From a virus, in the IMG/VR virus record IMGVR_UViG_3300043410_002455, positions 1-31,118 of that record: DNA of 31,118 bases; one strand, 5' to 3'. The notes below the pieces were generated by a model. The model had not been told where the DNA came from and did not search any database. It saw nothing but the letters and a program-made list of their open reading frames with translations. A program made the translations under genes and the position numbers. The first letter of the stretch is position 1. Each line of letters starts with the position of its first letter. Shown here in pieces: positions 8,041-25,769 of this stretch.

Positions 8041-8535
8041 TTAATCTCCTAATGCAATCGTAGTTGCAGAATATGGGTATTGTTTTGTTTGTTTTGATGT
8101 TGATATATTTCTGGTAATAAGTGTTATTGTACTTCCGATAAATGGAGCTTTGTAAATAATTAAATTATTTGCACTTACTCTAAATCCATTAGCAGAATCA
8201 TATGGCGTTATCCACGGATAAGTTATTGTACTTACATAGGGAGATAATTTTAATCCATTAATAAAAACATCTAAATCTTTTGAATCTACTAAAGTATTTA
8301 GTGGTTGTTGGTTTATTGTTAATGGAAAAACTGATGTTACTCCATCAAAATAATTTGATATATCATCTACGACTATTGGTGCATAAGGAGGCGTAGTAGA
8401 AATCCAATTTGTTCCATCACTGATTAGCACATTTCCGGCATTTCCGGATGCAGTTAACCCAGTTCCTCCGAAAGAAGTCGGTAATGGTGTATTCGCGCTA
8501 CCGGATCTTATTAAATTTGAAAGACTTTTAGCCAT
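8041..8535 (-). CDS. Small fibre structural protein (164 aa)
   Basis: The N-terminus (MAKSLSNLIRSGS, then FGGTGLTASGNAGNVLISDG) is a phage-fibre type linker, related to the GGTG-SG-N-L-SDG motifs also seen in the large fibres here. The middle part, NYFDGVTSVFPLTINQQP, and the segment DLDVFINGLKLSP match a recurrent phage structural pattern (a variable small beta domain). There is no membrane segment. AAGGA lies eight bases before the ATG. The gene lies six bases upstream of the 954-aa protein gene, suggesting that the two products are made and perhaps assembled together. Confidence 0.6.
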   Translation of the reverse strand: MAKSLSNLIRSGSANTPLPTSFGGTGLTASGNAGNVLISDGTNWISTTPPYAPIVVDDISNYFDGVTSVFPLTINQQPLNTLVDSKDLDVFINGLKLSPYVSTITYPWITPYDSANGFRVSANNLIIYKAPFIGSTITLITRNISTSKQTKQYPYSATTIALGD

Positions 8536-8546
8536 TCGTTATTTCC

Positions 8547-9026
8547 TTATGGTTGGGTTGGCCAAGTTATATTAAATGGAAACCCTTCTTGAAGAGTAAT
8601 GTCTCTTAATGCTTGTCTGTATATTAACCAAACTTCCTTGTTAACTGTAGCATCTGGAATCTGAGTCCAATCACTATCTTTTAATAATTGATTTCTTGTA
8701 TTTCTAATAGAAATAGCTTGTTGTTCATCAATTCTAGCTCGATATTCAGTTTCTTGTTCTGCAGCAGTTTTATCTTCAGTATCAACAAATACAGGTCCTA
8801 AACTGTATTTAGTAAAATATTTGCCATTTACCTCTTGAATTCCATCGCGGAATGAATATTCATATGGAGAGCTTGAAGTTGCTTGCGGTCCGTCAAGAAT
8901 TGCAACAGCACCAAAATCTGTTAATATATCTTCTGAAAGAATAACAGGAAAACTTGTATTAAAATAAAGATTTCTAAATTCTTGTTCAGAAATTACTTGA
9001 TTAGTTTCTTTTATTAAAATTTCCAT
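8547..9026 (-). CDS. Phage tail fibre assembly chaperone-like protein (159 aa)
   Basis: The C-terminal half reads RNQLLKDSDWTQIPDATV, then WLIYRQALRDI, then FPFNITWPTQP. This is the hallmark of the phage tail assembly chaperone family (Phage_tail_APC, Pfam PF16778), found next to fibre genes and thought to help fold or assemble fibres. The N-terminal half (EVNGKYFTKYSLGPVF) fits the usual variable partner-binding part. It sits directly downstream of the 641-aa repeat protein gene, eight bases away, so that protein is the likely client. AGGA lies six bases before the ATG. The family call is strong; the client is inferred. Confidence 0.8.
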   Translation of the reverse strand: MEILIKETNQVISEQEFRNLYFNTSFPVILSEDILTDFGAVAILDGPQATSSSPYEYSFRDGIQEVNGKYFTKYSLGPVFVDTEDKTAAEQETEYRARIDEQQAISIRNTRNQLLKDSDWTQIPDATVNKEVWLIYRQALRDITLQEGFPFNITWPTQP

Positions 9027-11727: not shown

Positions 11728-13893
11728 TTAACCAACGTTTAATTTAATACCAGTGTTAACCAAATAATAATTGGTTCCATCTGTGCTTGCTACGACAAAA
11801 GTTAATACATCAATCTTACCACTAGTTCCAGTTAAAGTCGGAGCAGTAGCAGCTGTCCATTTCATATTAGAATTCCAAGTAACTGTAGATCCGCCATTAT
11901 ATCTAATAATAACTTCATATTGATTACCGATTAAACTGCTTAATGTTCCAGTTAAATTAAATGTAGTAATATTTGCATTTAAATTAATTCTAAAAATTTG
12001 ATTAGTCGTTAAATCCCATGTTATAGCATTAGTTGATGGAGCAGTTTCTGCAGAAGTAGAAGGTGTTTGCGGTTTTGTAAAAGTTGTTGCAGTATTAGCA
12101 AAAACGTAATCTACACCAGCAACTGCATTAACTAATGCTCCGCTAGAATTGGCTTTTAGGATTGAAGTTCCAGAAGGAGGAGTTAAATAATCTACGTTAG
12201 CAACTGCATTAACTAATGCTCCGCTAGAATTGGCTTTTAGGATTGAAGTTCCAGATGGAGGAGCTAAGTAATCTACGCCAGCAACTGCATTGGCTAATAC
12301 AGTTCCAGAAATTTTTACCATACCCCCCAATGATGTATTAGCAGTGACATTTCCCAATGAACCGATAGGCGTTTCCAATAACCGCCAATTAGCAGTTCCA
12401 TAATTATACATAAATGTTGTATAAGCATTATTGATATCCAATATTACTGCGGTATCTCCCTCAATAGTATTGGTTCCACCACGATTAATTGTTAGATTAT
12501 TTGTATAGAATGTTCCAAAAACATCGACAATAGCAATCGTTGATCCATCAGGCGGAGACGTCGGGAATGTTACAGAAAATGCACCTGCTGCTGTATTACA
12601 TCTCACCAAATCATTAACTACTGCAGTATAATTTGCAGTTTGAATACTAGTTGGAAGTAACCCACCACCGCCAGTATTTGCCTTATTATAAGCAGAATTA
12701 GCTAATCCTAATGCAGTATTGGCTTGGTTAAATGCGTTTTGTGCAATTGTTACTCCAGTATTTGCTTGTCCATAAGCAGTATTAGCCTGAGTGAACGCAG
12801 AGTTAGCTTGAGAGAATGCAGAGTTAGCTTGAGAGAATGCAGCTTGACCTATTGTTATTCCAGTATTAGCCTGAGTGAACGCAGAGTTAGCTTGAGAGAA
12901 TCCAGAGTTAGCTTGAGAGAATGCAGAGTTAGCTTGAGAGAATGCAGAGTTAGCTTGAGAGAATGCAGAGTTAGCTTGAGAGAATGCAGCTTGACCTATT
13001 GTTACGCCAGTATTAGCTTGAGCATATGCGGCATTGGCTTGAACATAAGCAGTATTAGATAATCCACTATAATATGCTCCATGTTGTCCGTCAAGTAAGT
13101 CAGAGTTAAGATTAGCTACTAATGTATTAGATGCGACAACAAATGGTGCAAAGCCATTTCCAATTGAAAAAATAGCATTGGCTGCTAATATTGACCCAAT
13201 TTGAAGCGTGTCATAAATTGCTCCAGTAAAATCTACTGTAGAAGTTGGCTCAGCCGCAACATTTGAAAATAATTTCCAAACACCATCAGTAGCATCTCTA
13301 ACAAACCCAGTATGTTGATAATGATCTGAAGTAAAATGCCCTACTAATCCTATATCTTGAATGTTTGCAGGATTATCCTGCGCCAAATAAATTAATGGAT
13401 CATTAATAGATAAATTATTTGAACTTAATGTTGTTACATTACCTCCAAGATAAACGTTTCCAGTTACAGATAAATCAGTTGTTATTGTAACCGATCCGGA
13501 AATTGTTCCACCAGAGGAAGAAAATTTAGTATTAGCAGTATTATATGCTACATTAGCTTGCGTAAATGCGCTCTGACCTATTGTTATTCCACTATTGGCA
13601 GCTGTGTAAGCAGCATTGGCTTGCGTAAATGCACTTTGTCCTATTGCAACCCCAGAATTAGCCTGACTGTATGCAGCATTAGCTTGAGTGAATGCGCTCT
13701 GACCTATTGTTATTCCGCTATTAGCGGCAACATAAGCAGCATTAGCTTGCGTAAATGCAGATATAGCAGTATTTAATATAGGGGAAGTGTTAGCTGTAAC
13801 CAAATCCCATGCATATCCATTATAAACCCATGTTTTTGACCCAACCGTATGTGTTTGATTTAAAGTCGCTGGATTTGGAAAATTTATTGCCAT
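11728..13893 (-). CDS. Long tail fibre protein with heptad repeats (721 aa)
   Basis: Residues 1-35 (MAINFPNPATLNQTHTVGSK, then TWVYNGYAWDL) are a common N-terminal domain of environmental phage fibres. Residues 42-122 and 272-395 hold SAFSQAN/NAAYAQAN heptad-like repeats, probably a trimeric helical shaft. Residues 128-245 are the module shared with the 553- and 1091-aa fibres. A segment with NLNSDLLDGQHGAYY follows. Residues about 406-500 (TANYTAVVNDLVRCNTAAGA) are shared with the 1091-aa protein. Residues about 540-595 are a 27-residue repeat (ILKANSSGALVNAV). The last 110 residues form a beta-rich tip domain. AAGGA lies eight bases before the ATG. It is cotranscribed with the upstream 1091-aa gene, 16 bases away. 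The two fibres may form different segments of one fibre or alternative fibres. Confidence 0.8.
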   Translation of the reverse strand: MAINFPNPATLNQTHTVGSKTWVYNGYAWDLVTANTSPILNTAISAFTQANAAYVAANSGITIGQSAFTQANAAYSQANSGVAIGQSAFTQANAAYTAANSGITIGQSAFTQANVAYNTANTKFSSSGGTISGSVTITTDLSVTGNVYLGGNVTTLSSNNLSINDPLIYLAQDNPANIQDIGLVGHFTSDHYQHTGFVRDATDGVWKLFSNVAAEPTSTVDFTGAIYDTLQIGSILAANAIFSIGNGFAPFVVASNTLVANLNSDLLDGQHGAYYSGLSNTAYVQANAAYAQANTGVTIGQAAFSQANSAFSQANSAFSQANSAFSQANSGFSQANSAFTQANTGITIGQAAFSQANSAFSQANSAFTQANTAYGQANTGVTIAQNAFNQANTALGLANSAYNKANTGGGGLLPTSIQTANYTAVVNDLVRCNTAAGAFSVTFPTSPPDGSTIAIVDVFGTFYTNNLTINRGGTNTIEGDTAVILDINNAYTTFMYNYGTANWRLLETPIGSLGNVTANTSLGGMVKISGTVLANAVAGVDYLAPPSGTSILKANSSGALVNAVANVDYLTPPSGTSILKANSSGALVNAVAGVDYVFANTATTFTKPQTPSTSAETAPSTNAITWDLTTNQIFRINLNANITTFNLTGTLSSLIGNQYEVIIRYNGGSTVTWNSNMKWTAATAPTLTGTSGKIDVLTFVVASTDGTNYYLVNTGIKLNVG
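12121..12282 (-). repeat. 81-bp tandem duplication in the 721-aa fibre gene
   Basis: Two adjacent 81-bp units (12121-12201 and 12202-12282) are nearly identical, and a third, partial copy begins at 12283. They encode a 27-residue unit with ANSSGALVNAVA and PPSGTSILK. The low divergence points to recent duplication within the gene. Confidence 0.8.
12779..12990 (-). repeat. 21-bp tandem repeats encoding SAFSQAN heptads
   Basis: A 21-bp unit (on the plus strand GAGTTAGCTTGAGAGAATGC plus one base) recurs almost without change, five times in a row between about 12885 and 12990 and again near 12795-12840. Each unit encodes one heptad. Near-identity at silent positions is a sign of recent expansion by slippage or recombination. 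Confidence 0.85.
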
Positions 13894-13909
13894 TAATAAT
13901 ATCCTTTTA

Positions 13910-16900
13910 TTATCCTATGTATGCTACTGACCAGTTATCATTACCATCAAAACTTATTGTTCCGGCAGAAACTATAAATTTAAGCGTATCCCCAACTGCC
14001 ATCTTAACAATAGCACTACCTCCTGCATGATTCATTGATGTATTATTACCAAATTCTACCATAATTTGCGTAGAAGTAGCTCCACCACTATAAGCTGTTT
14101 TTTGTATAATAATCTGAGAAATAGCATTTAAACTATTACTATTTGTTCTTACTATAACATTAACTTGATACAAACCTTGAACTGGAGCAGTAAATATACC
14201 TGTTGAACTATTTAGATAATTACCTTGGTTAAAATCAACAGTCCAATTAGTACTGGTCATAGTAGTTGTTGCGCTAACTGCTCCTCCATTACCAACCACT
14301 TTAAATGCTGGGCGATTTGTTGTTAATAAACCAAAACCACTTGTTATTATGTGCCCAGAATTATCCATAAGAAACAACGTATTTCCATAGGCATTATCTA
14401 TAATTTCTAACCCACCAGTTACATTTAAACGTATTGTCTTAGATGGATTGGTTGCTCCAGGAGCATTATTTGTTACTTTTAAGAAATCAAAATAACCAGA
14501 ACCTCCGATAGTATTATTACCAGAGAGCATTAATGTTGCTCCAGCATTAGCTCCAGTATAATTTGAATAAATTTGACCAGCTGGAGAAATTGTTAGGAGA
14601 GTATTTGCCCCAGTACCGCTATTATAAAACGTTAATCCATCATTTCCACCAACAGAAATTCTACCATTGCCATTAACATAATCTAATACAATTCCATCAG
14701 TATATGATCCAGTATATGTTCCTGTAGAATACACTCCATTAGAAGATAATACAGAAGTACCGGAAACAATTCCAGGAAGTAAATTTCCGGAAATTGCAGA
14801 TGGACCACATTCTATCCAAACAGGATTAGAAGTATTACCAACATTTTCATATTTAACGCCAGTATCACTATGAATCCATGTATCTTTAGTATTAGAAGTT
14901 ACCGGAGATAAATTTTGAAAAAAACTTGTTACTTTAGATTGACTAGCTGTTAATGCTGTATTTGCTTGACTAAATGCAGAATTAGCTTGAGCGTAACTAG
15001 AGTTTGCTTGAGAAAATGCAGAATTTCCTTGATTAAACGCAGATTGACCAGTAGTTAATGCTACATTCGCCTGACTAAATGCTGAATTTCCTTGATTAAA
15101 CGCAGAATTTGCTTGAGCATAACTAGAGTTTGCTTGCGTAAATGCAGATTGACCAGTAGTTAATGCTACATTCGCCTGAGCGTAACTAGAGTTTGCTTGC
15201 GTAAATCCAGAATTTGCTTGATTAAACGCAGATTGACCAGCAGTTAATGCTATATTCGCCTGAGCATAACTAGAATTTGCTTGATTAAACGCAAATTCAC
15301 CAGTAGTTAATGCAGAATTAGCTTGAGCGTAACTAGAGTTTGCTTGATTAAACGCAGATTGACCAGTAGTTAATGCTATATTCGCCTGACTAAATGCAGA
15401 ATTAGCTTGAGCGTAACTAGAGTTTGCTTGCGTAAATGCAGAATTACTTAATGTAGTATAATATGTTCCATGTTGACCATCAAGTAAATCAGCATTAAGG
15501 TTTGCTACTGTTGTATTGGAAATAACCGTAAATGGCGAATTTCCCATTAAAGTAGTAAATGTAGCATTTGACGTTATTAATGTCCCTATTTGTAAAGAAT
15601 CATAATTAACATCAGTAAAATCTATAGTAGAAGAAGGTTCGCTAGATACATTAGAAAATAATCTCCAAATACCATCAGAAGCTTTTCTAACTAAACCAGT
15701 ATGTTGATATTTTGTATCAGTAAAATGACCAACAAACCCTATATCTTGTACATTTCCTACATTATTATTAGCCAAATAAATTATTGGGTCATTAATTATA
15801 ATATTATTTGAACTTATTGTTGTGACATTTCCACTTAAATATACATTTCCACTAACAGATAAATCATTAGTAATCGTTACTGAACCGGAAATTGTTCCGC
15901 CAGAAGATGAATATTTTGTGTTAGCTTGCGTAAATGCTGCATTAGCTTGGGTAAATGCAGATTGACCAGTTGTTAATGCTGTATTCGCTTGATCATAACT
16001 AGAATTTGCTTGCGTATATATTGATGTTAATGGCAAATCAACCCATGTAGCAAAAGATCCATCAGTTTTTAAATATTTACCATCATTTCCTGTTTGAGAA
16101 GGCAAAGAAATAGGAGCAGGTCTAGAAACCCAAGTTCCGTTGTTTGAAGTTAAAAGATTACCTTCAGTTCCAGGAGAAACAACTTGAACTTCTGAAGTTC
16201 CATTTCCTAATAAAACGCTATTAGCCTGTAAACTATTAGATCCAGTACCTCCTTGAGATACAGGCACTGTTGTAATAGCGTCAATTAATGTAACAGGTGA
16301 TTCTAATAATTTCCAATTAGTTGTTACTTCATTATAGATAAATGAAGCATATGCGCCATCTAAGTCAAGAATATAAGGGGACATATCATATTCAATATAT
16401 TCTGTATTAGGTAATAAAATTAAATTATTTGACCTGAATGTTTCACCCAAATCAAGTATTGCTACTATATCTCCATCTATTGGATTTGATGGAAACGTAA
16501 CTGAAAATGATCCAGCTGCTGTATTACATCTAACTAATTCATTACTAGATGCAGTATAATTTGAAGTTTTAATACTTGTTGTAACTAAACCGCTGGCACT
16601 AGTATTTGCTTTATCATAAGCAGCTGTAGCGTGCAAATACGCAGAATTGCTTAATGCAGTATAATATGTTCCATGCTGACCATCAAGTAAATCGGCATTA
16701 AGATTTGTTACAAGTATATTATTAGTAACTGTAAAAGGTGATATTTGTGAATTAGAACTACCAAATACTGCATTATTTGCAAATACTAAATTACCTGAAC
16801 CAGTTTTATCAGAAATAATTGCTGCTAACTCAGCACTTGTTGTAGTTGCAAATTGCCCCAAACCTTTTGCCGTTAATGGTGCATATGCAGCTGGAATAGA

Positions 16901-17185
16901 TATGAATACGTTTTTAGTTCCAGCACTAAAATTAACTATATGCCCCGTATTAGAACTGTTTATTATTTGAGTTCTAAGTATAGAATTATTTGAACTAACG
17001 TATTGACCAATACCAATTTCCCATTCAGAACCGCCAATTAATTCTACAACATACGGAAATGTATTGCCTGATGAAATACTTGATGATATTGTCTGATAAC
17101 CAACAGATGTGCCACCCAATACAATAGGTATGACGCCTGTGGTAATACTAGTTTCTTTTACTCTATCATTTATTTGTAAAGACAT
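13910..17185 (-). CDS. Long tail fibre with C1q-like tip (1091 aa)
   Basis: This is the largest protein of the window and the first gene of the late leftward operon. Residues 1-100 (MSLQINDRVKETSITTG, WEIGIGQY, FSAGTKNVFISIPAAYAP) form a typical phage fibre N-terminal domain, likely the attachment point to the tail. NLNADLLDGQHGTYY occurs twice (about 161 and 562). Residues about 203-300 match a block in the 721-aa fibre. Residues 429-545 are the module shared by three fibres. Residues 582-750 are heptad repeats (SAFNQAN, SSYAQAN) interrupted by ALTTGQ units. Residues about 975-1091 (WTVDFNQGNY, TGIFTAPVQGLYQVNV, DNWSVAYIG) look like a C1q-type trimeric head. The ATG at 17185 follows AGAG. 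The promoter is the divergent palindrome at 17248-17269. Confidence 0.85.
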   Translation of the reverse strand: MSLQINDRVKETSITTGVIPIVLGGTSVGYQTISSSISSGNTFPYVVELIGGSEWEIGIGQYVSSNNSILRTQIINSSNTGHIVNFSAGTKNVFISIPAAYAPLTAKGLGQFATTTSAELAAIISDKTGSGNLVFANNAVFGSSNSQISPFTVTNNILVTNLNADLLDGQHGTYYTALSNSAYLHATAAYDKANTSASGLVTTSIKTSNYTASSNELVRCNTAAGSFSVTFPSNPIDGDIVAILDLGETFRSNNLILLPNTEYIEYDMSPYILDLDGAYASFIYNEVTTNWKLLESPVTLIDAITTVPVSQGGTGSNSLQANSVLLGNGTSEVQVVSPGTEGNLLTSNNGTWVSRPAPISLPSQTGNDGKYLKTDGSFATWVDLPLTSIYTQANSSYDQANTALTTGQSAFTQANAAFTQANTKYSSSGGTISGSVTITNDLSVSGNVYLSGNVTTISSNNIIINDPIIYLANNNVGNVQDIGFVGHFTDTKYQHTGLVRKASDGIWRLFSNVSSEPSSTIDFTDVNYDSLQIGTLITSNATFTTLMGNSPFTVISNTTVANLNADLLDGQHGTYYTTLSNSAFTQANSSYAQANSAFSQANIALTTGQSAFNQANSSYAQANSALTTGEFAFNQANSSYAQANIALTAGQSAFNQANSGFTQANSSYAQANVALTTGQSAFTQANSSYAQANSAFNQGNSAFSQANVALTTGQSAFNQGNSAFSQANSSYAQANSAFSQANTALTASQSKVTSFFQNLSPVTSNTKDTWIHSDTGVKYENVGNTSNPVWIECGPSAISGNLLPGIVSGTSVLSSNGVYSTGTYTGSYTDGIVLDYVNGNGRISVGGNDGLTFYNSGTGANTLLTISPAGQIYSNYTGANAGATLMLSGNNTIGGSGYFDFLKVTNNAPGATNPSKTIRLNVTGGLEIIDNAYGNTLFLMDNSGHIITSGFGLLTTNRPAFKVVGNGGAVSATTTMTSTNWTVDFNQGNYLNSSTGIFTAPVQGLYQVNVIVRTNSNSLNAISQIIIQKTAYSGGATSTQIMVEFGNNTSMNHAGGSAIVKMAVGDTLKFIVSAGTISFDGNDNWSVAYIG
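14935..15440 (-). repeat. Heptad-coding repeat block in the 1091-aa fibre gene
   Basis: This block of about 500 bp is built from reused 21-bp and longer units such as GCGTAACTAGAGTTTGCTTG and GATTGACCAGTAGTTAATGC. They encode SSYAQAN, SAFNQAN and ALTTGQ in changing order. The same units recur with few silent differences, indicating recent rearrangement. Confidence 0.8.
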
Positions 17186-17247: not shown

Positions 17248-17269
17248 TATTTATTATTAATAATAAATA
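17248..17269. promoter_or_regulatory. Perfect 22-bp palindrome with divergent late-type promoter boxes
   Basis: A perfect palindrome centred between 17258 and 17259 lies in the 118-bp gap between the divergent 1091-aa (minus) and 846-aa (plus) genes. Each strand reads TAATAAATA facing outward (plus 17261-17269; minus 17256-17248), the same box found at 1765-1773 and close to the T4 late consensus TATAAATA. The arrangement suggests a compact bidirectional late promoter. All bases are A or T, so the palindrome alone is weaker evidence than its position. Confidence 0.6.
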
Positions 17270-17303: not shown

Positions 17304-19844
17304 ATGCTAGGATTTTTTCCAATAAGTTCCGGTCCAATATCTTCTTTAGGGATAGGAATAACAGCAAATGAATTTCAAAGTACAGCATCAGTAAGAAGTC
17401 AATCTTCAGCAAATATCTCTACTCAAATAAAATTTGAATCAGCAATCTCAGTAACAATAGCAATTTCTACTGTTCCATTAAATACTAATATAAAAATAGC
17501 TTCATCTATTACTGATATATTAGTATTAGGAACAGCTTCAATTAACACACGAATAAATCTTGCAGCACATGCTTCTTCTTTAGCTGTAAGTGGCGCGGCT
17601 TTAGCAACAAAAGTTAAACTTAATACTACAATAGTAGATACAGTTAATGTAACTGCTAGCCTAGGAACACGTGTCAAACTTAATGCAACAGTTTCATGTA
17701 ATATATCTAGCCATAGTTCGCTAACCAAAGATAATTATCTAATTGGAACATTAGTAGATGTAGTGAAGGCTACATCTACTATGACAACAAGAATTCAACT
17801 ACGCTCCACAGATTCTTGCGTTGTATCCAATTCAGCTAGATTAAATACTGGAGTTGTTCTTCTTGGAACACTATCAGATAGAGTTTCAGCTAATTCTACA
17901 TTATCAACTACAGTTAAACTAGTTGGAAGATTAACAGACACAGTTACCACTACATCTGCTCTTGTAACTAATATCAAAGTTGCAGGTTCATTATCAGATA
18001 GAGTTACAGCTAATTCAGCGTTATCAACTACTGTTAAACTTGCTGGAGCTATCGCATCCAGAACAACCGCTACATCTGCTCTTGTAACTAATATTAAAGT
18101 TGCAGGTTCATTATCAGATAGAGTTACAGCTAATTCAGCATTATCAACTACTGTTAAACTTGCTGGAGCTATTACATCTAGAACAACTGCTACATCTGCA
18201 TTATCAACTACAGTTAAACTTGCTAGTCCATTAATAGATAGAGTTACAGCTAATTCTACTCTGTTAACAAGAATTAAACTAAATTCAACAGACTATTGTA
18301 TTGTTACCAATTCATCTCAATTAAATTCTGGTATAGTTCTTATCGGAAGATTAACGGATAGAACTACTGCTAATGCAAATACGCTACAAACTACAGTTAA
18401 ATTAGTTGGAAGATTAACAGATACAGTTACTACAACGTCTGCTCTAAAAACTAATATTAAACTAACTGGAGCTATTACATCTAGAACTACTGCTAATGTA
18501 AATACCATACAAACAAATGTTAAACTTGCTGCTGCTCTAGTAAGTAGAACTACAGCTCAAGCAACTACACTAGTAACAAAAGTTAAACTAAGCTCAACTG
18601 ATTCTTGTGTTGTTACTAATGCTGCTCAACTGAATACTGGTATTGTTCTTATCGGAAGATTAACGGATAGAACTACTGCTAATGTAAATACCCTACAAAC
18701 CAATGTTAAACTAGTTGGAAGATTAACAGATACAGTTACTACTACATCTGCTCTTGTAACTAATATTAAACTAACTGGAGCATGTAAATCTAATACTTCT
18801 GTTTCTTGTGCGTTAACAACTGCATCTGTATTATTAGGTACAATCTCAAGTAGAACTACAGCTCAAGCAACTACACTAGTAACAAAAGTTAAACTAAATT
18901 CAACTGATTCTTGTGTTGTTACTAATGCTGCTCAACTGAATACTGGTATAGTTTTAATTGGTTCAATTATAGATAGAACTACTGCTAATTCTACATTATC
19001 AACTACAGTTAAACTAGTTGGAAGGTTATCAGATACAGTTACTACAACAGCATCTACTCTTAATACCAATATTACCGCAGCGGCAGCAATATCAACTAGA
19101 GTTACTGCAACATCTGCTCTAAAAACGCAAATTAAAGCTGCAAGTTCTATTGTAGATGCAGTTACTGCAACATCTGCTCTAAAAACACAAATTAAAGTTG
19201 CTGCTACAATAACCAATCAAGTATCTGTTGTTACAAATTTAATAACAAATATTAATCTAAATTCAACTGATTCTTGTGTTGTTACTAATGCTGCTCAACT
19301 GAATACTGGCGTTGTTCTGGTAGGTTCTATCACAGATACAGTTACAACTACAGCAAACCTGATAACAAATATTAATCTAGAATCAGTAGATTCTTGTATT
19401 GTTACTAATGCTGCTGAACTAAATTCTGGTATTGTTCTTGCATCTGATACCTTAACTGCTGTAGTATCTGCTCAAGCAACTACTCTGCAAACTTCGGTTA
19501 AAGTATCAGCTAATTTAGTTAATACTATTGCTACTGATGCGCTACTAGGTGTTAAAGTATATCTAGAAGCTCATATAGTTGCTAATAATTCTTGCTCTAT
19601 TATTTCTTCTAATCTAACGGCAAGAAAATTAAATTCTGAACTTAATACCTTTGTTGTAACTATTCCTACTCAACAATATCTAATACAAACTGTTGTTAAT
19701 TCTACTTGTATTCAAACTGCGCTTAATGCTAAAAATACTGTAGAATATCTAATGCAACCTAATGATACTAGCAATATTGTTAATGTGATGAATAATGATA
19801 ATCTTATACATATTAATCCAAATATCTTCTTAATTACTAAGTAA
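17304..19844 (+). CDS. Long repeat protein, probable fibre-like virion protein (846 aa)
   Basis: The N-terminus MLGFFPISSGPISSLG resembles the short leader of other phage structural proteins. From about residue 50 to 790 the protein is a chain of roughly 20-residue repeats, for example ALVTNIKVAGSLSDRVTANS and ALSTTVKLAGAITSRTTATS. Other units contain cysteine (STDSCVVTNAAQLNTGIVL). Alternating small/hydrophobic residues and regular T/S/N/D turns suggest a beta-solenoid or similar rigid rod. No membrane segment or catalytic motif is visible. The last 50 residues are non-repetitive (QQYLIQTVVNSTCIQTALN). It is the first of two plus-strand genes, read away from the fibre operon from the divergent palindrome at 17248-17269. 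GAGAG precedes the ATG. The role as a fibre or whisker-like rod is inferred; I do not recognise a named family. Confidence 0.65.
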   Translation: MLGFFPISSGPISSLGIGITANEFQSTASVRSQSSANISTQIKFESAISVTIAISTVPLNTNIKIASSITDILVLGTASINTRINLAAHASSLAVSGAALATKVKLNTTIVDTVNVTASLGTRVKLNATVSCNISSHSSLTKDNYLIGTLVDVVKATSTMTTRIQLRSTDSCVVSNSARLNTGVVLLGTLSDRVSANSTLSTTVKLVGRLTDTVTTTSALVTNIKVAGSLSDRVTANSALSTTVKLAGAIASRTTATSALVTNIKVAGSLSDRVTANSALSTTVKLAGAITSRTTATSALSTTVKLASPLIDRVTANSTLLTRIKLNSTDYCIVTNSSQLNSGIVLIGRLTDRTTANANTLQTTVKLVGRLTDTVTTTSALKTNIKLTGAITSRTTANVNTIQTNVKLAAALVSRTTAQATTLVTKVKLSSTDSCVVTNAAQLNTGIVLIGRLTDRTTANVNTLQTNVKLVGRLTDTVTTTSALVTNIKLTGACKSNTSVSCALTTASVLLGTISSRTTAQATTLVTKVKLNSTDSCVVTNAAQLNTGIVLIGSIIDRTTANSTLSTTVKLVGRLSDTVTTTASTLNTNITAAAAISTRVTATSALKTQIKAASSIVDAVTATSALKTQIKVAATITNQVSVVTNLITNINLNSTDSCVVTNAAQLNTGVVLVGSITDTVTTTANLITNINLESVDSCIVTNAAELNSGIVLASDTLTAVVSAQATTLQTSVKVSANLVNTIATDALLGVKVYLEAHIVANNSCSIISSNLTARKLNSELNTFVVTIPTQQYLIQTVVNSTCIQTALNAKNTVEYLMQPNDTSNIVNVMNNDNLIHINPNIFLITK
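17958..18197 (+). repeat. 120-bp tandem duplication in the 846-aa repeat gene
   Basis: Two adjacent 120-bp units (17958-18077 and 18078-18197) differ at only a handful of positions and encode two 20-residue repeats each. The next stretch continues with half a unit. This marks recent lengthening of the rod by whole repeats. Confidence 0.85.
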
Positions 19845-19860: not shown

Positions 19861-20349
19861 ATGCAAATATATTCTCCTACTACTAAAGGTCCTATGAAAA
19901 CAGCGGGGTTTATTGATCCTGATGATAATACCAAAATATCTGTCTTTTGGGGTGCTCCAACTTTCTCTGAACTTACTGTCTATAGGCTAGGTGATATTGC
20001 TCGTCCAACTACTGATAATGGCTACTACTATCAATGTACCACTAATGGTGTTACTGGCTCTATTGAACCTACTTGGAATCAAGAGGAAACTATCTCTGGC
20101 TCTGTAACCTTTACTGCTGTTCCTTGGAATCTCTGGATTCTTCCTAATGAACAAATTACTGAGTCTACTTGGGTTGCAAATAATCCTGATATTATTCTGC
20201 ATGATGAATCCTTTAGTGACTATAAATCTAATATCTATGTTTCTAATGTTCCTGCAACTCTTACTGAGTTCCAATTGACAAATCAAGTTACTAAAGGTAA
20301 TGGTGAAATGATGTCTAGAAGCTTTCTCTATAAAGTAAATCAACAATAA
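19861..20349 (+). CDS. Small virion protein with carbohydrate-binding-like and Ig-like halves (162 aa)
   Basis: The first half contains VYRLGDIARPTTDNGYYYQC, then GSIEPTWNQEE and SVTFTAVPW. This pattern resembles the small carbohydrate-binding-like modules often present in phage structural proteins. The second half (WVANNPDIILHDESFSDYKS, then EFQLTNQVTKGNGEMMSRSF and LYKV) fits a beta-sandwich domain seen in phage head-tail or fibre-adaptor proteins. The gene begins 16 bases after the 846-aa gene, with AAGG about nine bases before the ATG. The two are probably coexpressed, and the product might attach the repeat rod to the virion. That pairing is inference. Transcription then meets the hairpins at 20359-20470. 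Confidence 0.6.
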   Translation: MQIYSPTTKGPMKTAGFIDPDDNTKISVFWGAPTFSELTVYRLGDIARPTTDNGYYYQCTTNGVTGSIEPTWNQEETISGSVTFTAVPWNLWILPNEQITESTWVANNPDIILHDESFSDYKSNIYVSNVPATLTEFQLTNQVTKGNGEMMSRSFLYKVNQQ

Positions 20350-20358
20350 TGATAATTC

Positions 20359-20396
20359 TCGCCCTATATTAAAGCGATCGCTCTATATTAGGGCGA
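20359..20396. terminator. GC-rich hairpin 1 of the convergent junction
   Basis: Perfect 8-bp arms TCGCCCTA (20359-20366) and TAGGGCGA (20389-20396) enclose 22 bases holding a 10-bp palindrome, AGCGATCGCT, with the octamer GCGATCGC. It starts ten bases after the stop of the 162-aa gene. A long T-run is missing, so it may work as a bidirectional transcript end or 3' stabiliser rather than a classic terminator. Confidence 0.55.
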
Positions 20397-20422
20397 TTGA
20401 TATTCGTGAATTCTTAGTCTAT

Positions 20423-20441
20423 TCGCCCCATTATAGGGCGA
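20423..20441. terminator. GC-rich hairpin 2 of the convergent junction
   Basis: Arms TCGCCC and GGGCGA with a seven-base loop CATTATA. The arms are the same sequence as the outer arms of hairpin 1, so the left arm here could also pair with the right arm of hairpin 1 (20391-20396), giving two exclusive folds. Confidence 0.5.
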
Positions 20442-20448
20442 TCTGAAA

Positions 20449-20470
20449 TTGCGCGTTAGTTATGGCGCAA
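20449..20470. terminator. Hairpin 3 of the convergent junction
   Basis: Perfect 6-bp arms TTGCGC and GCGCAA enclose a ten-base loop. On the plus strand a T-rich stretch (AAATTTATTTTATTG) follows after six bases. It is probably part of the transcript end for the two plus-strand genes. Confidence 0.45.
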
Positions 20471-20540
20471 CAGTGAAATTTATTTTATTGATTCTGAATG
20501 TATTTGGAATGGTAATAGGGGGATTATAATGAATATTATT

Positions 20541-20620
20541 GGAGTCTATGGAAGGTGTCTGGTAATTACTGAAGTCTACTGAGGTCTACTGAGGTCTACT
20601 GAGGTCTACTGAGGGTGTCT
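20541..20620. repeat. Non-coding array in strict 10-bp register (GAGGTCTACT)
   Basis: Three exact GAGGTCTACT units (20581-20610) are preceded by GAAGTCTACT. In the same 10-bp phase lie GGAGTCTATG, GAAGGTGTCT, GGTAATTACT and, after the exact copies, GAGGGTGTCT. The phase equals one DNA helix turn, as expected for side-by-side protein binding. Stops in the frames argue against coding. A regulatory or origin-like role is possible but unproven. Confidence 0.75.
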
Positions 20621-24923: not shown

Positions 24924-25769
24924 TTATTTTGTAAAATTCAACATTGGAACTGGACCAGTCATATACTGAGGCAATTCCCCATTCCATTTATCGATTTTAT
25001 TTAGTTCAAGCACGCTTGGGTTATTTCTCAATGCAGCACCCTTAATCTCAATCGCCTCAGCTTCTGCTTTAGCAATAGCAATCTTGGATTCAGCTACACC
25101 TCTAGCCTCGGCAATAGTTTTATCTGCTTCAGCTTTTGATTGAGCCACTTCATTTTCTCGCTGTTGAGTTTTTTGTAATGCTTGAATTTTAGCATTAATA
25201 GATTCAACAATAGATTCTGGTAAACGCATATCGCCAACCAAATAAATGCTTTCGATTTTAATACCAACTGGATCCATATCATGACGAACTAAATTTGTTA
25301 CATCATCAATTAAAGCACTTTTACCCTCGCCATAAACAGATTCAATATCTCTAGATGAAGCAGCTTTGTTAAACGCATCTCGCACGCTATTACGCAATAC
25401 AACATGAGTAATTTCATTAACGCCTTTGCGATATTTCTGGAAAATATCAGTTACTTTATCTGGTTCGATATGATAACTAATACCAACATCAGTATTTACA
25501 GTTAAACCTTGTCTGGTTTGAAATGTAAACGAATCATCGTTTGGGCTGCCTTCTGTTGAAGCTTTAGTCCAAACATGGTTTTGAGTAAATGTTGGGAATA
25601 AGAATAAATCCTCATTAACACCTATCCAATAACGCCCAACACCTAATACTTGACTATCCACACCCTTGTCGCCGCCATTTAAAAATACCTTGATTCCAGT
25701 ATAACCTGGAGGAACATTAGAACAAGCAACAAGGAATGGAATCACTAACAACCATAATAATTTTTTCAT
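24924..25769 (-). CDS. SPFH/Band 7 (prohibitin-like) lipoprotein (281 aa)
   Basis: The N-terminus MKKLLWLLVIPFLVAC is a lipoprotein signal with the lipid-carrying Cys16, followed by SNVPPGYTGIKVFL, the usual opening of Band 7 domains. Residues about 20-190 form the SPFH domain (TFQTRQGLTVNTDVGISYHI, then VLRNSVRDAFN). Residues about 190-255 are an Ala/Glu/Lys-rich coiled coil (AQSKAEADKTIAEARGVAES) for oligomer formation. Prohibitin-like proteins build membrane rings that protect or control proteases. A phage-coded lipidated form could act at the host inner or outer membrane. It shares an operon with an exported barrel protein upstream. AAGGA lies about nine bases before the ATG. The domain call is strong; the role in infection is unknown. 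Confidence 0.9.
   Translation of the reverse strand: MKKLLWLLVIPFLVACSNVPPGYTGIKVFLNGGDKGVDSQVLGVGRYWIGVNEDLFLFPTFTQNHVWTKASTEGSPNDDSFTFQTRQGLTVNTDVGISYHIEPDKVTDIFQKYRKGVNEITHVVLRNSVRDAFNKAASSRDIESVYGEGKSALIDDVTNLVRHDMDPVGIKIESIYLVGDMRLPESIVESINAKIQALQKTQQRENEVAQSKAEADKTIAEARGVAESKIAIAKAEAEAIEIKGAALRNNPSVLELNKIDKWNGELPQYMTGPVPMLNFTK

Follow-up and report, generated by a model that had tools for sequence, protein, structure and literature searches.

What is the product of a phage gene that consists almost entirely of 20-residue repeats and is read against the strand of its neighbors, and does it belong to the virion? The gene lies in the 31,118-base IMG/VR virus record IMGVR_UViG_3300043410_002455 (positions 1 to 31,118), which was analyzed over its whole length and is referred to here as the window. 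An ORF survey found an open, intact reading frame of 846 aa at 17304-19844 (+) and a second, encoding a 162-aa partner, at 19861-20349 (+). As an earlier note on this DNA had claimed, these are the sole plus-strand genes of the window; the remaining plus-strand ORFs overlap longer minus-strand genes, and all other genes are on the minus strand. The window also encodes a 954-aa protein that shares 42% identity with virion structural proteins from Synechococcus phage S-PM2 and its relatives, ribonucleotide reductase genes, and a SegE-type GIY-YIG nuclease, which, together with the AATAAATA promoter boxes described below, indirectly point to a T4-like (cyanophage-like) tailed myophage.

Repeat architecture and the conserved cassette

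Self-identity of the 846-aa protein was maximal at lags of 20 (0.262) and 40 (0.264) residues, about 16 standard deviations above shuffled sequences (0.099 ± 0.010), and iterated profile segmentation gave 37 scored windows over residues 38 to 727, approximately 36 of them good, at a spacing of 20 (26 times) or 21 (8 times) residues; both results bear out the periodicity reported for this protein. It is made up of an N-terminal motif, MLGFFPISSGPISSLG (17304..17351, plus strand), an array of ∼36 units of 20 to 21 residues with the core L-x-T-x-(I/V)-x-L (residues 38-727; 17415..19484, plus strand), and a C-terminal tail of ∼9- to 10-residue repeats, (N/D)-N-x-L-I-x-I (19614..19841, plus strand). 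The start consensus ahead of the array, MLGF-[FY]-x-I-[SG]-S-x-PISS-[LS]-G, is near-invariant among relatives, and the tail, judged by eye, occupies a place analogous to that of the ENR/EDR repeats that other proteins linked to Gp77 carry.

Unit statistics were drawn from 260 units, obtained by the same segmentation from six proteins (the window protein and five relatives). Position 1 is Leu or Ile in 99% of units, position 3 is Thr or Ser in 96%, position 5 is Ile or Val in 97%, and position 7 is hydrophobic in 98%; these positions, which face inward in the model described below, are almost never charged, whereas positions 2, 4, and 6 are variable and charge-bearing. The interspersed Cys-bearing units that had been pointed out are present in ∼6 to 7 copies (STDSCVVTNAAQ, followed by LNTGIVLIG), or about one in five to six units, with LNTG or LNSG opening the next unit. 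The spacing of these units (S-x-D-x-C-V-V-x-N, then an L-N-(T/S)-G unit) varies from 2 to 8 units. The composition of the protein is Ser/Thr-rich, and at the DNA level the gene contains 120-bp and 309-bp tandem arrays, 81 to 85% matched.

Relatives of the locus were found in the IMG/VR contigs L002/L009, L003-L006/L010-L014, L008, and L012, and in part in L007. The full cassette, consisting of a divergent fiber gene, a promoter pair, the repeat gene, and the partner gene, recurs with its orientation kept. Full-length repeat proteins of the relatives have 1165, 1230-1231, 1304, and 1154 aa and 51 to 55 units, against ∼36 in the window; with lengths from 846 to 1304 aa, unit number varies widely, and the repeat-number variants that the earlier note had suggested looking for do exist. 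Two further candidates, L015 and L016 (24% identity), were chance matches in a high-GC contig. Other repeat proteins are encoded near the cassette in two contigs: a minus-strand protein with SMFxSCYSLQTVPLFNLGALTNAT repeats of BspA-like leucine-rich type in L002 (3-1478), and, in L012 (908-5665), several proteins on the minus strand that carry RCC1-like GLWxWGYNxYGxLGDNTVTNKSSPVQT repeats.

Ahead of the repeat gene, a perfect 22-bp palindrome (17248-17269) places AATAAATA on each strand, in agreement with the divergent palindromic promoter proposed earlier. The late promoter box of T4 is TATAAATA, which the AATAAATA boxes resemble. The plus-strand T4-type box (17262..17269) lies 42 nt before the start codon of the repeat gene; the minus-strand box (17248..17255) lies 70 nt before the start of the divergent fiber-like gene (1091 aa; 13910..17185, minus strand), a conserved neighbor of the cassette whose product has MSLQINDRVKETS at its N-terminus, QANSAFTQAN repeats, and a C1q-like end. 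In each of the six loci tested, the two boxes persist at a nearly fixed distance to the start codons (the minus-strand box of L012 reads TATAAATA), while the palindrome center does not, which argues for selection on two promoters rather than on a palindrome. Because the motif is not rare in the AT-rich window (14 found versus ∼27 expected from shuffles), the promoter argument rests on positional conservation. T4-late-type boxes would fit a structural role for the cassette, and we infer that the repeat gene, the partner gene, and the divergent fiber gene are turned on late from a common control region.

The DNA past the partner gene carries repeats of its own. The noncoding stretch 20350-20480 contains several GCCCTATA-type inverted repeats around GCGATCGC (HIP1-like) sites, as does L002 at 8500-8640, and 4.8 copies of a 10-bp unit, TACTGAGGTC, are found at 20567-20614. 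A different 10-bp array (unit AGGTCTCCGA) occupies the equivalent gap in L002, so the gap seems to be home to fast-changing short repeats.

The Gp77 domain of the partner protein

The 162-aa partner (19861..20349, plus strand) consists of a small N-terminal domain and a C-terminal Gp77 adaptor domain. The C-terminal domain (residues 86-156; 20116..20328, plus strand) was identified by a profile match to Pfam PF23148, Gp77, the fiber-tail adaptor of phage GP4. All six members of the partner family matched PF23148, with a best E value of 3.3e-6; the window partner itself matched with an E value of 6e-4 and 20.7 bits, below the curated cutoff of 27 bits. GP4 gp77 itself, in PDB entry 8jou, was recovered (4.5e-23) with a wider profile built on 15 Gp77 domains, of which three come from the partner family, although closer Gp77 members are in that profile as well. 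Judged by these profiles, the C-terminal half of the partner is a member of Pfam Gp77. It resembles GP4 gp77 (PF23148; PDB 8jou, chain D), which comes from a Ralstonia podophage and is encoded beside fiber genes; unlike GP4 gp77, the partner has 162 rather than 93 residues, carries an extra N-terminal domain, and belongs to a T4-like phage. The N-terminus of the divergent fiber-like protein was also compared with the GP4 fiber, and no match was found. In the partner family and related loci, Gp77 genes adjoin fiber or putative rod genes in tail regions.

The small domain of the partner (residues 30-89; 19948..20127, plus strand) matched phrog_20658 (1.9e-9), a family annotated as head decoration and found in several phage virion proteins. 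Matches of the partner to Fab chains were dropped as chance.

Repeat proteins beside Gp77 in other phages

Gp77 was carried by 15 of 398 sampled Pseudomonadota genomes. In one carrier, G103, the protein adjoining Gp77 holds a unit of the window type (LTTGIQL, LTTQIPL). When the repeat profile was run against ∼800 genomes, matches were obtained in G103, G485, and G454: only G103 matched in the first genome set, with a profile that contained a G103 row, and G103, G454, and G485 matched in the second (n = 399). The blind cases are G485 and G454, because G103 was first found through Gp77. Each of the three genomes has one Gp77 gene, which lies 15 bp after the repeat gene or overlaps it; both features that define the L-x-T-x-I-x-L repeat family, 20-residue units recognized by profile and an adjacent Gp77 gene, are present.

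The proteobacterial prophage members of this family (L080, L089, and L090) share with the window protein a 20-residue unit, as judged by profile, and a Gp77 gene immediately downstream; they differ in having a globular domain N-terminal to the repeats, a length of 507 to 659 aa, and a siphophage-type or Mu-like context. The repeat/Gp77 pair is flanked by tail tube and tape measure genes in L080 and L090, which lie in prophage tail modules, and lies near a Mu-type portal gene in L089; tail tube, tape measure, tail chaperone, capsid, and portal genes make up the surroundings of the three loci.

Across 29 Gp77 loci, proteins with an 18- to 25-residue periodicity were more frequent near Gp77 (8 of 70) than among other genes (2 of 233; Fisher P = 1.7e-4), although most sampled Gp77 loci have no repeat neighbor, which counts against reading the pair as a rod and its adaptor. 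Gp77-linked periodic proteins were found in Ochrobactrum phage POI1126 (gp16), Microcystis phages Mae-JY22 and Mae-JY28, and Gordonia phages Moosehead and GodonK; the repeats of these cultured-phage neighbors differ in sequence from the window units. The actinophage minor tail proteins (Moosehead gp28 and GodonK gp95-96) have ∼21- to 24-residue repeats beside Gp77, as in the window pair, but the repeats are unrelated in sequence, and those of ENR type in Moosehead are at the N-terminus.

The earlier note, which recognized no described phage family for the repeat protein, was not entirely right, in that the protein is no isolated case: its architecture is also seen in siphophages and in podophages of the Bcep22 type. 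BcepIL02 gp56, BcepMigl gp57, and JC1 gp54 show a 20- to 22-residue periodicity (z scores of 7.8, 4.3, and 4.5, respectively), begin with M-x-(F/L)-YALN-x-TPINGWAT, and have ENR-type repeats toward the C-terminus. Their genes immediately precede Gp77 (in BcepMigl the distance is one gene), and tail fiber genes then follow. The Bcep22-like proteins thus resemble the window protein in a ∼20-residue periodicity, an N-terminal (F/L)YA-x-x-x-x-P-I motif, C-terminal short repeats, and an adjoining Gp77 gene, with the likeness of the two ends, including the (F/L)YALNETPIN start, judged by eye; they differ in their length of 246 to 291 aa and their Gly-rich repeats, and they give no significant sequence match. 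The PHROGs family of the Bcep repeat protein, phrog_19041, likewise failed to match the window repeat protein or its relatives, and only the architecture is held in common. BcepIL02 gp56 (the repeat protein) and gp57 (Gp77) are both recorded as virion-associated. Mass spectrometry on purified JC1 virions picked up the Gp77 homologue gp55; the repeat protein gp54, which occupies the equivalent place, is absent from the list of virion-detected proteins (PMC9144972), a point against a rod in the virion.

Predicted fold and probable virion role of the repeat protein

No described phage family had been recognized for the repeat protein, and none emerged here: no matching family was found in Pfam or NCBIfam, and PDB chains gave no sequence match at E values up to 1. 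Weak Pfam matches, among them NOA36 and DASH_Dad4, reflected composition and were dropped. A tblastn search of 50,697 phage records returned nothing even at an E value of 10, which is not evidence of absence because BLAST most likely masks low-complexity sequence of this kind. Repeat-rich phage proteins are usually left hypothetical since similarity searches mask them.

The suggestion that the protein forms a β-solenoid rod fared well at the level of a fragment and less well at full length, where AF2 reached a pLDDT of only 37. For a seven-unit fragment (residues 200-339 in the numbering of the segmentation, beginning LSTTVKLVGRL; 18 in-register alignment rows), the best of five models had a pLDDT of 87 and a pTM of 0.83 and was all β, with two strands to every 20 residues; of the other four, one scored 85 and three stayed at 50 to 65. 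VIA-align superposed the fragment model on the antifreeze protein 3p4g (Z score of 13.3, root mean square deviation [RMSD] of 1.6 Å over 134 residues) and on bactofilin 6rib (Z score of 12.2, RMSD of 1.6 Å over 92 residues). Foldseek gave no significant match in the PDB or a viral library (all E values above 0.02); a Bcep22 virion-associated protein came up with an E value of 0.56 and was given no weight. For perfect repeats, AF2 has a documented tendency toward solenoid models that score well but are unrealistic (PMC11795689). The window units are imperfect and were modeled from a natural alignment; this and their charge-free core set the fragment model apart from the artifacts described. The β-solenoid with one coil per unit is a prediction, favored by the fragment model and the uncharged core but not by the full-length score. 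With about one coil per ∼20 residues, the predicted fold resembles those of the RTX-like, Ca2+-dependent antifreeze solenoid 3p4g and the bactofilins; this is a resemblance of fold only, as the window protein has no sequence relation to them and no RTX Ca2+ motif was seen in it. An ice-binding function, to which the 3p4g match might point, was rejected, because the position-3 Thr ladder is on the side of the hydrophobic core and not on the outward face.

We consider it probable that the repeat protein is a variable-length β-solenoid rod in the virion, mounted on the tail through its Gp77 partner. The strongest alternative keeps the virion fiber and changes its fold: the two short strands contributed by each unit would be shared between chains, as in many phage fiber shafts, so that the units form an intertwined multimeric (e.g., trimeric) β-fiber instead of a single-chain solenoid. 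Most known phage fibers are trimers, GP4 gp77 is present as three chains in 8jou, and the failure of AF2 on the full-length monomer is what an intertwined fiber would be expected to give. The fragment, however, is modeled with high confidence by itself and superposes closely on single-chain solenoids, and the residues that point inward make up a clean core free of charge; we regard the multimeric fiber as unlikely.

From the Gp77 partner, the prophage tail modules, and the late-type promoters, we infer that the repeat protein and the partner are located in the virion. The idea of an undescribed virion structure accordingly stands in its first half, a likely virion role, but is weakened in its second, as PHROGs already lists the Bcep counterpart as a virion structural protein. 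That entry is filed under head and packaging, and with the phrog_20658 match it would fit a pair that decorates the head, the N-terminal domain of the partner being of head-decoration type and the repeat protein a capsid fiber or whisker. PHROG category labels are coarse, however, the Gp77 half of the partner is of the GP4 fiber-tail adaptor family, and related pairs adjoin tail tube, tape measure, and tail fiber genes, all of which makes attachment to the head improbable. Least credible of all is a low-complexity, largely disordered or nonvirion product whose repeats are a structureless by-product of recombination: the Ser/Thr-rich composition, the low full-length pLDDT, and the DNA-level tandem repeats would suit it, but four unit positions are held in 96 to 99% of 260 units, and conservation extends to the N-terminus, the synteny, and the promoter boxes.

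On the tail-mounted solenoid reading, each 20-residue unit would be one coil of the rod. The rise of a solenoid is 4.8 Å per coil, so that ∼36 coils would give a rod of roughly 17 nm, and the longest relative one of up to about 26 nm. The partner would act as an adaptor, its Gp77 domain docking on the tail and tying it to the rod and/or the neighboring fiber; for the additional N-terminal domain of the partner, binding of a surface glycan is a possible role. Either the conserved N-terminal motif or the short-repeat tail could be the anchored end of the rod; the globular N-terminal domain of the prophage relatives would suit an exposed N-terminus. Rod length would shift among relatives by gain or loss of units, helped by the tandem repeats in the DNA, and the tie between the repeat family and Gp77 suggests that phages tune rod length in this way.

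More tentatively, and a little short of an even call, single-chain β-solenoid rods of freely variable length, with ∼20-residue units, an N-terminal motif, a short-repeat tail, and a Gp77 mount, may constitute an undescribed appendage class common to myo-, sipho-, and podophages with differing repeats. The tie to the Gp77 adaptor would supply a gene-order rule for recognizing such rods, and many unannotated tail genes become testable through Gp77 linkage.

Two other features of the window were observed. The region 11728-17185, which includes the divergent fiber-like gene, holds two large minus-strand genes with many 21-bp repeats coding for QANSAFTQANTAY-like segments, likely a coiled or fiber shaft. 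At 24924-25769, the phage encodes a prohibitin/SPFH-like lipoprotein with a lipobox-like start (phrog_200 match, 5e-81).
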